Below are positions 1 through 63,402 of a DNA stretch of 64,000 nt, piece by piece. The first letter of the stretch is position 1. Every line of letters begins with the position of its first letter. The notes under the pieces are model-generated. The model did no database searches. It had not been told where the DNA came from and was given only the letters and a program-made list of their open reading frames with translations. The DNA comes from an uncultured SAR92 cluster bacterium (GTDB taxonomy: Bacteria; Pseudomonadota; Gammaproteobacteria; Pseudomonadales; Porticoccaceae): assembly GCA_902527245.1 (NCBI GenBank), contig CABZOI010000004.1:62001-126000 (forward strand), given 5' to 3'. Made by a program: the position numbers and the translations under genes.

Positions 1-1493
1 GTTGAGGATAAACCGTAGGAAATATTATCCTTAATAGATTTCGCAAAAAGTATGTTTTGTTGCAATGCAATTGAAACATTTGCTCTAAGTTCACTTGTCT
101 GAAAATCTTTTAGATCAGTATCATTAATCGCTACCCTTCCTTGATCAGGGTCATAGAGTCTTAGGAGCAGAGAGAGCAATGTTGATTTTCCACTTCCAGT
201 ACCGCCAACAATGGCAGTTATTGTGCCCTTAGATGCATCAAGTGAAACTTTAGATAAAACAGGGATATCGGATTCGTAGGAGAATGCAACATTCTCAAAA
301 GAAACTTTATTAACAATCTGGGGAAAAGGATCCGTATTAAGTTTATCTTCTACCTCGGGCTCACTATCGAGAATATAAAAAGCTCTTCTCAATCCCATAA
401 TCAAGTCTTGTGCCATTGATAACAGATATGAAAGTTCCCATACCTGCAATGCAGCCTGCTCTCCCTGAACCGAAGCGGCTCTGAAGGCTCCAAGATTCCA
501 TACTGCAAATCCAATAAATGCAACGGCACCACCGAGATAAGTAGATTTTTCAATAATTGCCCAAGTTGCCATGAAATATTCAGCAATGATAAAACCGCCA
601 ATGCTCAGAACAATGGAGACTAAAAGATATATAGACATGTATAGCCTCATTTCAAAAGTCGCACTGAGTGCCTGCTTTGAATCGAGGCGAAATCTTCTCA
701 TCATCTCCTCCTCAGCACCGTTTGCTTTGATTACCCTTGAAGCGGCAAGATTTTCTTGTATCCGAGATGTCAATGCACTATTTAACTCTCTGGATAATCT
801 TGCTTTTTCTCGAATTACTGGAACGATTTTTCGACTTACCAAAGTCATACAGAACGCAATAACTAAGATTATCACTCCAAACCAAGGTGAGAAAAATAAA
901 AGAAAGATTGACGCAAAAAGGATCCAGCCTATGACTCTGAGAGGTGTTAAAACCAAAAACTGCAATACCGCTGTTATCGTAGCACTATCTTGATACACCC
1001 GATAAATTAAATCCCCAGTTCGCGATGAACTATGATATTTCAACGATAAATGCTCGGCTCTCGCAAGCATTTCGACTCGTAAATGTTGATTCACTCTCTG
1101 GAAAATCCAGACCGCATAGTAGCCTCCAAAAACAATTAATCCATATACAAAAACAATCCATATCCCACCAGCAATAATAATTCGGCTTCTCAATTGATTT
1201 CTCTGATCTAAACTAAGCGTTTCTTCATTCGCAGAAGCTCCATTTAGATAAGTGTCATCGAGTAATAACATACTAACCTGAAGAGATTGCAGTTTTTGTC
1301 CTTGTAGTAATTTGTTGTATATGAGATCTTCAGAGAGTACGAGCGAGCCGAGCACTAGAGCACCAGCTACCATTGTGAGTGAGACATAGGCCATCAAGTG
1401 TTTCACTTGTGGTTTGTAAAATGGCCAACATTTTTTTAGAAAGCTTATAACTTCTGCAAAAGTTACTGGTTGTGTATCATCATTTGTGATCAA
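1..1493 (-). CDS. ABC exporter, fused permease/ATPase (C-terminus cut by window edge)
   Basis: Partial gene of about 497 codons that runs off the left edge. The N-terminal half reads as a hydrophobic six-helix exporter domain. The C-terminal half enters the nucleotide-binding domain, with a Walker A motif GGTGSGKST at about 181-210 and a Q-loop (LQQNILF) at about 52-75. The signature motif and Walker B lie outside the window. I place the start at TTG 1493-1491: it overlaps the upstream gene's TGA (TTGA) and has a strong GGAGG-type ribosome site about 6 nt upstream, whereas no ATG fits. By family (ABCB/MsbA-like type) it exports lipid, peptide or drug; the substrate cannot be read. It is translationally coupled to the phosphoesterase, which by itself says little about function. 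Confidence 0.9.
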   Translation of the reverse strand, partial: MITNDDTQPVTFAEVISFLKKCWPFYKPQVKHLMAYVSLTMVAGALVLGSLVLSEDLIYNKLLQGQKLQSLQVSMLLLDDTYLNGASANEETLSLDQRNQLRSRIIIAGGIWIVFVYGLIVFGGYYAVWIFQRVNQHLRVEMLARAEHLSLKYHSSSRTGDLIYRVYQDSATITAVLQFLVLTPLRVIGWILFASIFLLFFSPWFGVIILVIAFCMTLVSRKIVPVIREKARLSRELNSALTSRIQENLAASRVIKANGAEEEMMRRFRLDSKQALSATFEMRLYMSIYLLVSIVLSIGGFIIAEYFMATWAIIEKSTYLGGAVAFIGFAVWNLGAFRAASVQGEQAALQVWELSYLLSMAQDLIMGLRRAFYILDSEPEVEDKLNTDPFPQIVNKVSFENVAFSYESDIPVLSKVSLDASKGTITAIVGGTGSGKSTLLSLLLRLYDPDQGRVAINDTDLKDFQTSELRANVSIALQQNILFAKSIKDNISYGLSS

Positions 1494-2260
1494 AAATACC
1501 CCTCCGAGTGATACTTAATCCAAGGCTCTCTTTTCCCGATACCATAACCGGAGATGAAACCCTCTTTCAGCCATGAGAGAAAGTCAGGAAATTGTTTAAG
1601 CTCTTCAATATCCTCAATTGCAGAAATCCAGGGTCGTTGGTCATAACTGACCTGTCTCGGAATATAATTTCCATTTTCAAACACCGCGTAACACGCATGA
1701 GTTCTTCCACACCGCGGTTGGCCAACGCTACCTGGATTGATATAAGTCTTGTCTCCCAATTTATGAGTAAACTGAATATGATTGTGCCCAAATAAGATTA
1801 GATCGCTTTCATTCTCTGGATCTAAAGCCTCAAAACTTGCTGCATCGGCATATGGAAGCGCTGGCGGTATCGATCTATCGAGCTGACCGTGATGCAGAAA
1901 AAACTCGATATCACCGATTTCATAGTTTCCACTAGAAGTATATGTTTTTGTCATCGCAATTATTTCAGATGGTATTTGATTGAATGCCCACTGATTGTAT
2001 GCACGCCAATCTTCTGGCCATTTATCAATCAATCCATGATCCAGCAAAATTTCATCATGATTTCCCATGATGTTAATATCAGGCTTCACATGGAGTAAAA
2101 TTTCTGCCGTCTCTTTAGGTTGTGGTCCGCTTAATACAGAATCCCCAAGAAAAACAAGAAAATCGTAATCTGATTCTTTTTTTAAAACTGCTTTGAGTCC
2201 TTCGGCATTCCCGTGAATGTCACTAATAATTAATATCTTGCTTTGCTTTAAGTTCATCAT
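1490..2260 (-). CDS. Calcineurin-like metallophosphoesterase (YfcE/MJ0936-type)
   Basis: A 256-residue cytoplasmic protein with the full metal-site pattern of the calcineurin-like superfamily: SDIHGN (D14, H16), LGDS (D40), GNHD (N67-D69), a GHNH motif (about residue 158) and NPGSVGQPR near residue 176. The family hydrolyses phosphodiesters or phosphomonoesters with two metal ions; the natural substrate is not predictable from sequence. It has no signal peptide. Its start codon directly abuts the stop of the GH32 gene (2261-2263), and its stop overlaps the ABC transporter start, so the three genes form one minus-strand transcription unit. Two consecutive Met codons begin the ORF, and either could be used. 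Confidence 0.9.
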   Translation of the reverse strand: MMNLKQSKILIISDIHGNAEGLKAVLKKESDYDFLVFLGDSVLSGPQPKETAEILLHVKPDINIMGNHDEILLDHGLIDKWPEDWRAYNQWAFNQIPSEIIAMTKTYTSSGNYEIGDIEFFLHHGQLDRSIPPALPYADAASFEALDPENESDLILFGHNHIQFTHKLGDKTYINPGSVGQPRCGRTHACYAVFENGNYIPRQVSYDQRPWISAIEDIEELKQFPDFLSWLKEGFISGYGIGKREPWIKYHSEGYF

Positions 2261-57598: not shown

Positions 57599-59986
57599 TT
57601 AGTTATATTGAAAATTTACTCTCAAACCGATATTTCTTCCAGGTAGTGGAACCTCATCTTTAACAAACGACGCATGATTTCTTGCTATCTCATCCAAGAG
57701 GTTTTTAGCAAAAACAGTTACTGACAATCTCTCAGTATCTGAGAAAACAAAACTCTTTGTCATGTTTAGGTTCAACATCTGATATCCATCAGTAACCATC
57801 TCACCGACACCAGTATCCTTTTGGCTCTCAACATCTTTAAATGACATCTTGAGATCTAGCGTATCTTGAGTGTATCTAGCTGCAAAGATATTTCTAGGTG
57901 GTGTTATTCTTGGAAGATACCCACCTGAGGCAAACTCCGCCTTGAGCGCGTCGCGAGCAAATGATAACTCAAGCTCACCCGAACCCAATGCAAAAGATCT
58001 ACCAATCTCAAGTTCATAACCTTCAAGTAATGCATCGCCCTGAAGATAATCAGCTCTTATCAAGCCTCCATGATCATGCTCATCTTCATGTTCTTCGTGC
58101 TCTTCTTCAGTTTCATCTTGAAGGTATATGTAATTATCAACGTCGTTTCGGAAGAATGATAAATTACCAAAATATCCGTCTCGCTCATAAATAAAATTCA
58201 AATCAATATTTCTTGAGGTTTCAGATTTAAGATTTACATCACCAACCTCATATCGACCTGTTGCCATGTGGGCTCCATTCATAAACAACTCTATCGAAGA
58301 AGGAGTTCGCTCAACATTGGAAATTCCAAGCGTGAATGACAAGGAGTCAGTGATTTCATTGCTCAATGACATTGACAGACTCGTATTATTGTCTGATCTA
58401 CTGTAATACTCCATTTCATGTTCTTCATCATGATGCTCATCGCCATGATCTTCATCGCCATGATCTTCATCATCGTGATGCTCTTCCTCATGAGATAAAG
58501 AACCCTCTCGGTCTATGAAATCAAATCGTGCTCCAAAATCTACTGTGAACTGACCAATCTCGGTAGAGGCATAATAACCCAAGGTTACCTCATCACTCTC
58601 ACTTGGATTCATGAATGCTTCAGACCCAATAATAGAAACTTCTTCACTCAGAACATTGACAGCTACTTTTTGAGCTAAAGCGTCTGTACTTAGATCGAAG
58701 GTGGCACCAAACTCATCTGACTCACTTGAGAAAACAGTGGACTCACCATGCCCGTGACCATCATGCTCATCCTCATGATGCTCATCACCATGGTCCTCAT
58801 CTGAATGATCCTCGTCCGCGTGATCTTCATCCGCGTGATCTTCATCCGCGTGATCTTCATCATGACCCATTTCCTCATGTCCCTCGGTCAAAATATAATC
58901 ACTTTTTCTGTAGAAGTAATCTACCGAATTCACGAGATTACTCGCAAGATTAAACGAACCTCGCAAGTTATACGCATCAGAGGTAGTGACAGCGAAGATT
59001 CTTTCCTCACCGTGCCCTTCATGCCCGCCATGCTCATCACCATGATCTTCATCACCATGGTCCTCATCACCATGATCCTCATCACCATGGTCCTCATCAC
59101 CATGGTCCTCATCCATATGATCATCATGGCCACCATGCTCATCACCATGGTCATCACCATGAAAAGGAATACCATAAGTACTACGCGAGTTGCTTTGAGA
59201 TACTCCAATGTATCCCCAATCACCTGTCTTGGATATACCGAAACGTCTCGATGAATTCATGTAATCAGAATTGGCTAAACCAGACTCATCATGATGCTCT
59301 TCCTCGTCGTGATGCTCTTCCTCGTCGTGATGCTCTTCCTCGTCGTGATGCTCTTCCTCATGGTGCTCTATCGCACCTTCGGGAACTTCATAGTTTCCAA
59401 GCTCTACATTTTTATATGCACCTGTGATATTGAATCCACCAAAATTGGTTTTTAATGAAACATATCGGGAATCACCATCATTAACACTTTGGTTCTCAAC
59501 GCCCATTTTCAATTGAGTTGTTTCGATATCACTTTTCATAATGGTGTCATCGACGATATTAATTAAGCCACCAATCGCACCATTAGAATACAACAGAGAA
59601 GATGGTCCTTTAATAACCTCAATTTGCTGAACTGCGTTCATATCCACATCATTGGGGTGGTCAGCGCCCAGGCCACTTACGTCTCTGACTGAAACACCAT
59701 TATTGAGTATTTTTACTCGACTACCTAACATGCCCCTAATGATGGGCTGACCTACTCCCTGCCCATAATCAGCAATTGAGACTCCACTGAGATCTCCGAG
59801 TGTTTCACCCAAACTTCCACTGGGTGATGTTGAGATATCCTCACCCGACAAAACATGCAAAGGCTTTTCTATGTTCGTTGACGTCAACGCTGATGTTACT
59901 ACGACTTCGTCAATTGTTTCTGAACTTACGAGCCCCGATATACTTGAACTAACTAAAAAATAAAATAAAACACGAAACTTATTCAT
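57599..59986 (-). CDS. His-rich TonB-dependent receptor (ZnuD-like metal uptake)
   Basis: A 795-residue outer-membrane receptor. A signal peptide (1 to about 22) precedes the TonB-box-like IDEVVVTSA, the plug domain (QPIIRGMLGSRVKILNNGV, EVIKGPSSLLYSNGAIGGLINIVDD, to about residue 135) and the barrel, which ends NIGLRVNFQYN. At least four loops are packed with His/Asp/Glu repeats: about residues 205-232 (six-residue EEHHDE), 278-319 and 373-415 (five-residue EDHGD and EDHAD), 498-522, and a shorter one near 626-637. Zn-scavenging receptors such as ZnuD have comparable His-rich loops, so zinc or another divalent metal is the likely cargo. A small exported protein gene sits 43 bp upstream in the same direction, with a Fur-family-like palindrome above it. 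Confidence 0.92.
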   Translation of the reverse strand: MNKFRVLFYFLVSSSISGLVSSETIDEVVVTSALTSTNIEKPLHVLSGEDISTSPSGSLGETLGDLSGVSIADYGQGVGQPIIRGMLGSRVKILNNGVSVRDVSGLGADHPNDVDMNAVQQIEVIKGPSSLLYSNGAIGGLINIVDDTIMKSDIETTQLKMGVENQSVNDGDSRYVSLKTNFGGFNITGAYKNVELGNYEVPEGAIEHHEEEHHDEEEHHDEEEHHDEEEHHDESGLANSDYMNSSRRFGISKTGDWGYIGVSQSNSRSTYGIPFHGDDHGDEHGGHDDHMDEDHGDEDHGDEDHGDEDHGDEDHGDEHGGHEGHGEERIFAVTTSDAYNLRGSFNLASNLVNSVDYFYRKSDYILTEGHEEMGHDEDHADEDHADEDHADEDHSDEDHGDEHHEDEHDGHGHGESTVFSSESDEFGATFDLSTDALAQKVAVNVLSEEVSIIGSEAFMNPSESDEVTLGYYASTEIGQFTVDFGARFDFIDREGSLSHEEEHHDDEDHGDEDHGDEHHDEEHEMEYYSRSDNNTSLSMSLSNEITDSLSFTLGISNVERTPSSIELFMNGAHMATGRYEVGDVNLKSETSRNIDLNFIYERDGYFGNLSFFRNDVDNYIYLQDETEEEHEEHEDEHDHGGLIRADYLQGDALLEGYELEIGRSFALGSGELELSFARDALKAEFASGGYLPRITPPRNIFAARYTQDTLDLKMSFKDVESQKDTGVGEMVTDGYQMLNLNMTKSFVFSDTERLSVTVFAKNLLDEIARNHASFVKDEVPLPGRNIGLRVNFQYN
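58433..59365 (-). repeat. In-frame tandem repeats encoding metal-binding loops
   Basis: Four clusters of near-identical units inside the receptor gene. At about 59290-59360 the 18-bp unit is repeated about four times (EEHHDE). At about 59032-59120 and 58805-58865 the unit is 15 bp (EDHGD, EDHAD). A shorter cluster lies at 58433-58480. All unit lengths are multiples of three, so gain or loss of units keeps the reading frame. Confidence 0.9.
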
Positions 59987-61860: not shown

Positions 61861-61905
61861 TTGACATAAATTTAATCTAAATTAATATACCCCCCATGGG
61901 TATTA
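61861..61905 (+). promoter_or_regulatory. Promoter with CsoR-type GC-tract operator over the start codon
   Basis: TTGACA at 61861-61866 and TAATAT at 61883-61888 (16-bp spacing) form a promoter aimed at the operon. The predicted transcription start falls at about 61895, the base before or at the ATG (61896), so the message would be essentially leaderless. The tract ATACCC-CCCAT-GGGTAT (61887-61903) has the AT-flanked C/G run of CsoR/RcnR operators. It overlaps the -10 box and the start codon. Confidence 0.7.
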
Positions 61906-62511: not shown

Positions 62512-63021
62512 ATGAAAAATTACTTATTTTTGTTGTGTTTATTGATGGTAAACCTTGGCGCAGTGAGCGATGAGCCAAAAATGCAAGCTACGGAACATAA
62601 GCATGAAGGACACATGAATCATGAGGAACATGCGGGACACATGAATCACGAGGGACATATGGATCATGAGGGACACATGGATCATCAGCATCACTCTCAT
62701 AAAGATCATGCTAATGAAACAATGATAGACGGGAAAGATCTCCAAGTTGATCCAGACCGATTTAATAAATTTACGAAAAATCTTTCATCATGCAATGTCG
62801 CGGTGGTGAGTGTCACGGGGATGGTTTGTGATTTTTGTGCGAGAGGTATCGAGAAGACATTTAAGAAAGATAAAAGCGTCCTAGCAATTGATGTTGATTT
62901 AGCAAAAGGAAAAGTTTTAGTTGCTTATGAAAAATCAAGAGCAATCGACTTCGATGAAATAAAAAATAAAATTTTAATTAACGGTCAAAATGCAACTGAC
63001 TTAGAGATTCTGGAGATTTGA
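62512..63021 (+). CDS. Exported His/Met-rich protein with C-terminal HMA domain
   Basis: A 169-residue protein. A signal peptide (1 to about 19) is followed by a His/Met-rich stretch (residues 29-66) built from GHMNHE and GHMDHE repeats, ideal for copper or silver. Residues about 95-165 form a heavy-metal-associated domain with the metal motif GMVCDFC (Cys106, Cys109). The strong ribosome site AGGAGG precedes the ATG. As a periplasmic metal carrier it could pass ions to the MerT-like protein encoded next (15-bp gap). The combination of a low-complexity metal sponge and an HMA domain is uncommon. Confidence 0.88.
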   Translation: MKNYLFLLCLLMVNLGAVSDEPKMQATEHKHEGHMNHEEHAGHMNHEGHMDHEGHMDHQHHSHKDHANETMIDGKDLQVDPDRFNKFTKNLSSCNVAVVSVTGMVCDFCARGIEKTFKKDKSVLAIDVDLAKGKVLVAYEKSRAIDFDEIKNKILINGQNATDLEILEI

Positions 63022-63036
63022 GGACGATTCACTGAC

Positions 63037-63402
63037 ATGAACGACAAATCCGCAAACATCATCTCTTTATTTGCTTCCTCATCAACATTAATCTGTTGTG
63101 CCTTACCCTCATTGTTTGTTTTGGTTGGCGCAGGAGCAAGCTTTGCTAGCTTAATAACGATATTTCCTTTTCTTGTAACTTTATCAAAATATAAAATTTA
63201 TATTACCTTGTTTGCACTATTCGCTCTCATTATTGCAGGCGTAATTAATTACAGAACTTATCATCTTCCATGCCCAGTAGATCCTGCTCTTGGAGCCACT
63301 TGTATGGCTCAAAGAAAGAGATCACGATATCTTTATTATGCCTCAACAGCAGTGTTTTTATTTGCAACTATTTTTACCTACATTATCCCGAGGATTATTT
63401 AA
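63037..63402 (+). CDS. MerT-like small metal-transport membrane protein
   Basis: A 121-residue protein with three predicted membrane helices. Helix 1 carries the vicinal pair Cys20-Cys21 in LICCALPSL, as MerT has CC in helix 1. A loop pair, Cys79 and Cys89 (HLPCPVDPALGATC), corresponds to the MerT loop cysteines. MerT moves Hg(II) across the inner membrane. With a CsoR-like regulator and a His/Met-rich protein here, copper(I) is also possible, and no MerA reductase is visible. It ends at the base before the regulator gene starts (0-bp gap). Confidence 0.85.
   Translation: MNDKSANIISLFASSSTLICCALPSLFVLVGAGASFASLITIFPFLVTLSKYKIYITLFALFALIIAGVINYRTYHLPCPVDPALGATCMAQRKRSRYLYYASTAVFLFATIFTYIIPRII

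Follow-up and report, generated by a model that had tools for sequence, protein, structure and literature searches.

The operon described here is, judging from comparison with its relatives, very probably a metal-derepressed leaderless operon in which a CsoR-type operator is fused to the starts of both transcription and translation. It lies in the window (the whole stretch of 64,000 nucleotides from an uncultured SAR92 cluster bacterium that was analysed) and represents an uncharacterised four-gene metal module of SAR86 and Porticoccaceae, consisting of a beta-barrel, a His-rich HMA protein, a MerT-like protein and CsoR (Table 1). We observed directly the position of the element, its conservation, the geometry of the promoter, the lack of a Shine-Dalgarno sequence and the association with CsoR.

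Table 1. Features of the operon and its start region (positions are those of the window)
Feature	Position	Strand	Basis
-35 element TTGACA	61861..61866	+	direct reading of sequence; comparison with homologues
-10 element TAATAT	61883..61888	+	-13..-8 relative to ATG; 16 nt downstream of TTGACA
Predicted CsoR-type operator ATACCC-CCCAT-GGGTAT (ATACCCCCCATGGGTAT)	61887..61903	.	core TAC-N9-GTA, 61888-61902
Predicted transcription start, leaderless mRNA	61895..61896	+	last -10 base (61888) plus ~7 nt; Shine-Dalgarno absence
First gene, signal peptide and predicted outer-membrane beta-barrel, 201 aa	61896..62501	+	AlphaFold model, fold comparison
Second gene, exported-looking His-rich protein with heavy-metal-associated (HMA) domain	62512..63021	+	PF00403, E=2.5e-7
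Third gene, small membrane protein, weakly MerT-like	63037..63402	+	PF02411, E=0.0099 (sub-threshold)
Fourth gene, CsoR-family repressor with C33-H58-C62	63403..63663	+	PF02583, E=1.9e-26

Direct reading bore out the promoter layout proposed in an earlier sequence-only reading (TTGACA and TAATAT separated by 16 nt, 61861-61888) and its placement of the palindrome around the start codon, with ATG 61896-61898 inside 61887-61903. The palindrome spans the final two -10 bases, the predicted start point, the ATG and codons 2 and 3. The further proposal that this one 17-bp element holds promoter, operator and translation start stands for the operator and the ATG but not for the whole promoter, of which only two -10 bases (61887-61888) are included. 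The core reads TAC-CCCCCATGG-GTA, in agreement with the TAC-N9-GTA inverted repeat and its inner C/G tracts. ATACCC-N3..6-GGGTAT matches once in the window, against 0.00 expected from shuffles, and the exact form ATACCC-N5-GGGTAT is unique in the 1.9-Mb genome. An in-frame TAA (61878-61880) lies just 5' of the ATG, and from this TAA up to where the signal peptide ends no other ATG, GTG or TTG was found at which the first gene could start. The promoter matches the consensus at 10 of 12 positions; promoter-like sites in the region showed no excess (12 found, 11.8 expected in shuffles), and the consensus match, not being significant against shuffles, was dropped as proof in its own right. Because this match is no better than chance for the region, the claim of a promoter is based on comparison.

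First-gene homologues were found in 31 of 112 genomes of the window's own family, and scanning GTDB contigs yielded 119 stretches encoding the gene, of which 80 were kept (from SAR86, Porticoccaceae, OM182, K189A, and PS1-clade and IMCC14465 Alphaproteobacteria). After 12 repeats were dropped 98 distinct loci remained, two of which were unreadable (assembly gap, contig end). A TAC-N9-GTA operator-type element covers or abuts the start codon in all 96 readable loci (N8 in three), from both Gamma- and Alphaproteobacteria, several of the relatives being assemblies from metagenomes and the loci not being independent. With repeats counted, 90 of 111 loci preserve the gene order OMP-HMA-MerT-CsoR.

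The element occurs in two registers. In type A (82 loci including that of the window, mostly TACCCCCYATGGGTA) the ATG lies within the operator; in three of these loci the spacer is shorter by 1 nt, and in one (L137) GTG takes the place of ATG. In L026 the ATG starts directly after the operator. In type B (14 Porticoccaceae loci, TACCCTANGGGGGTATG-like, which stand together or nearly so in the tree) the ATG is found at the 3' end of the operator. Between the two, the operator is shifted by 6 bp relative to the ATG and the inner tract is inverted, from C-rich in type A to G-rich in type B. Unlike that of the window, the type B -10 lies wholly inside the operator (TACCCT at -14..-9 in 13/14 loci, with TTGA at -36 in 7/14). 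The distance from promoter to ATG nevertheless stays the same within 1 nt while the operator slides, a constancy that a leaderless start predicts. As a separate observation, a very divergent homologue (L214, in G355) retains a type A element while its nearest relatives in the tree are without one, by retention, convergence or promoter capture.

The comparison also points to a leaderless start in type A. TAnnnT stands at exactly -13..-8 in 69 of the 79 scored homologues, against counts of mostly 0-12 and at most 20 (at -18) for other positions; TTGA is found in 26/79 at -35 or -36, counted from the ATG, and many relatives match the -35 consensus only weakly. A Shine-Dalgarno tetramer precedes only 2 of 91 first genes, compared with 60 of 98 second genes (AGGAGG in the window) and 37 of 85 csoR genes. 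The score of the third gene is also low (4/86), perhaps owing to a crude choice of starts or to translational coupling. Leaderless mRNAs are expected to have a -10 box 6-8 nt ahead of the start codon and to lack a Shine-Dalgarno sequence. Both features are seen here (the -10 at -13..-8 in 69/79, no Shine-Dalgarno sequence in 89/91), and the first-gene mRNA is probably leaderless, as had been proposed from the window alone.

Another consequence of the overlap concerns the protein, as the type A operator dictates the first residues, Met-Gly-Ile (in the window) or Met-Gly-Met. In 78 of 78 type A first genes the second codon is GGT, whereas GGT makes up 36% of the other Gly codons in those genes. 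Five SAR86 loci (L109, L112, L113, L125 and L127) carry a run of nine T in codons 7-9, just past the operator ATG, whose frame differs by one base from that of the mature protein, a point against the proposed fusion; the frame of the relatives would require one extra base in the run. A similar case was seen in Porticoccaceae (L019). The frame offset may reflect transcript slippage, phase variation or error.

A protein-blind scan for the DNA pattern in 369 class-level genomes gave 29 hits, of which eight, including that of the window, fell on the exact start of the first-gene family, the others being apparently chance or another gene family. The pattern TACCC-N3-ATGGGTAT was rejected as a genome-wide finder: its hits outside the family were mostly chance-like and about as numerous as those of a reversed control. 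We also noted an unrelated gene pair (a MarR-like HTH protein and a nucleotidyltransferase domain; L176 in G422, 885-1508, minus strand, and L194 in G151, 1509-2135, plus strand) with TACCCAA(T/A)ATGGGTAT spanning the start and another palindrome of this kind immediately 5' of it; this may be a second family in which an operator-like palindrome overlies the ATG.

A pattern-blind protein search retrieved more distant first-gene homologues and gave a set of 13 genomes, in which operator and CsoR are both present in eight, both absent in four, and the operator alone is present in one (Fisher p ~0.007, calculated by hand and uncorrected for relatedness). The exception is G114, where the contig ends ~0.1 kb past the first gene; in the seven other type A genomes of the set, the window's included, CsoR is present, and in G840 the operator lies between the homologue and a divergent csoR. 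In the four genomes in which CsoR went undetected (G155, G241, G398 and G815) the operator is absent at the homologue, and a Shine-Dalgarno-like sequence precedes its start in G155, G398 and G815. In G241 (L212, ~1480-1500, read on the minus strand) the homologue begins about a dozen bases after a tRNA-like sequence. Outside this pattern, G106 has the operator with csoR undetected in a 96%-complete assembly. Where csoR is located elsewhere (G104, G107, G101, G102 and G017) a similar operator is found upstream of it, followed in G104 and G107 by a leader of ~31-33 nt, and in G082, with csoR first in the operon, a leader and a Shine-Dalgarno-like sequence come after the operator. Overlap with a start codon is therefore no requirement of the operator but a property of the first gene. 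Taken over all genomes, we consider it likely that the fused element is widespread, in two registers 6 bp apart with an inverted inner tract, that CsoR binding shapes the N-terminus, and that genomes lacking CsoR tend to lack the operator and usually have a conventional ribosome site instead.

The AlphaFold model of the first gene product is a barrel of twelve strands (pLDDT 82), with the KdgM porin and a designed 12-stranded barrel as nearest PDB folds (TM ~0.5); nothing scored above cut-off among Pfam and NCBIfam models. That a CsoR-family gene ends the operon, as first read from the sequence, was confirmed: Trns_repr_metal (PF02583) covers the whole protein (92.7 bits, cut-off 22.8), the best PDB match is CsoR 4adz (E=4e-17), and no second CsoR was found in the 1.9-Mb genome. 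The Cys-His-Cys fingerprint of CsoR (C-x24-H-x3-C) is present in 86 of 87 csoR hits of the homologous loci, including that of the window. At the RLxR position of helix 1 (R54/R57 in S. lividans) the window has SINR, in which the second Arg is kept and the first is Ser; SLKR or SIKR is typical of its group. Further upstream but close to the operon, on the minus strand (57599-59986), the window encodes a ZnuD-like TonB receptor carrying extended His/Asp/Glu repeats (HHDEEE, DHGDE), possibly a metal receptor.

We infer binding, transcription start, metal and derepression to be connected as follows. Apo-CsoR, the product of the last gene, would bind TAC-N9-GTA across about -9 to +8 and, once bound, block RNA polymerase at the core promoter. 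Binding of a metal, most likely Cu(I), by C33/H58/C62 would release CsoR, after which transcription would begin at the A of ATG 61896 or one base earlier. Translation of the first gene would begin with the AUG at the very 5' end of the mRNA, while ordinary ribosome sites often precede the second gene and csoR, and the start codon and first residues would be dictated by the operator.

Alternatively, the CsoR operator could be real but act as a roadblock at the start codon, with transcription starting upstream and a conventional leader on the mRNA. The frequent weakness of the -35 among homologues, the other, weaker TAnnnT positions (e.g. -18 in 20/79) and the separate csoR genes of the same family, where a leader follows the operator, would agree with this, yet the -10 is fixed at -13 in 69/79, the TA outside the operator is conserved, a Shine-Dalgarno sequence is absent in 89/91 and the register switch preserves the spacing from promoter to ATG, which makes an upstream start unlikely. 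An action of the palindrome as RNA, either as a start-codon hairpin controlling translation or as a minus-strand terminator, is very improbable. Its inverted arms could pair if transcribed (UACCC/GGGUA) and scoring picked out a terminator-like site on the minus strand, but the left arm would be missing from a leaderless transcript and a similar motif occurs near csoR; we rejected hairpin and terminator on the invariance of the arms, which show no covariation, on the presence of the inner tract in both orientations (C-rich in type A, G-rich in type B) and on a terminator count not clearly above that of shuffles.

We also regard it as very unlikely that the element serves another regulator as its operator, csoR being merely linked. 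Binding of CsoR is predicted from sequence, and G106 and G114 have the operator with no csoR detected; against this, the TAC-N9-GTA match extends to studied CsoR sites (PMC3902906, PMC5947656, PMC5057107), the element is found near separate csoR genes and its presence follows that of CsoR in 12 of the 13 genomes (eight with both, four with neither, one with the operator only). A CsoR-type operator, as read at the outset, is thus supported by the match, the 96 loci and the association with csoR. More room is left for doubt about the metal. The C-H-C site suggests Cu(I), in line with the best family matches for the operon (copper CsoR/RicR and CopZ-type HMA), but does not fix it, because NreA of Mesorhizobium, with the same residues (C38/H63/C67), senses Ni (PMC12724321). 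The MerT-like and MerP-like neighbours and the response of the Bradyrhizobium liaoningense CsoR to Zn and Cd as well (PMC5057107) likewise make Hg(II), Ni(II) or Zn(II), with the anatomy as proposed, a possibility of some weight, if not the one that we would favour.

The metal-derepressed leaderless operon that we prefer would have one short sequence serve as operator, start point and start codon, conserved in distantly related, abundant marine lineages. With such a fused element, the constraint that a DNA-binding site puts on coding sequence becomes testable, as does the question why stress operons tend to be leaderless. Its parts are known elsewhere; the fusion of a CsoR operator with a start codon and its strong conservation look new, and in the open-licence literature, which is incomplete, we found no published CsoR operator over a start codon and no description of the operon in SAR86.

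Repressor-controlled leaderless mRNAs as such occur in Gram-negative hosts, for instance those of lambda cI and Tn1721 tetR (as cited in PMC3017554) and of cI and cro of phage PY54 (PMC4488713), with unrelated repressors and operators. The acuR-acuI-dddL operon of Rhodobacter sphaeroides (PMC3017554) is similarly leaderless and controlled by its own repressor through an operator over the promoter, with Shine-Dalgarno sequences at downstream genes, but its repressor is of the TetR family and encoded by the first gene, and the operator is not described as covering the ATG. Among CsoR systems, TAC-N9-GTA was shown to be essential in Streptomyces, and the operators of csoR, copZA1 and copZA2 of S. 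lividans share it, with inner C/G tracts and a length of 16-19 bp (PMC3902906); overlap with a start codon is not stated there, though an ATG does stand a short way downstream in the flanking sequences of its Table 1. The window operator also resembles the site proposed in the S. aureus copA promoter, which was gel-shifted with CsoR (PMC5947656). The nreAXY operon of Mesorhizobium (PMC12724321) is alike in having a CsoR/RcnR-family repressor, a type 1 operator, a role in metal resistance and a leaderless mRNA, the 5'-RACE end being the A of the ATG, but its operator (TATCC-N9-GGATA) lies in the -35/-10 spacer with the start codon outside and its repressor gene comes first, a layout not found in the window, where the operator covers -9..+8 and csoR is last. 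In the csoR-cueA divergon of B. liaoningense (PMC5057107), the csoR mRNA is leaderless by RACE, the cueA leader measures 42 nt and the CsoR box, TATACCC-N5-GGGTATA, is nearly the element of the window, but lies over the -10 elements that two divergent promoters share by overlap, instead of over an ATG.
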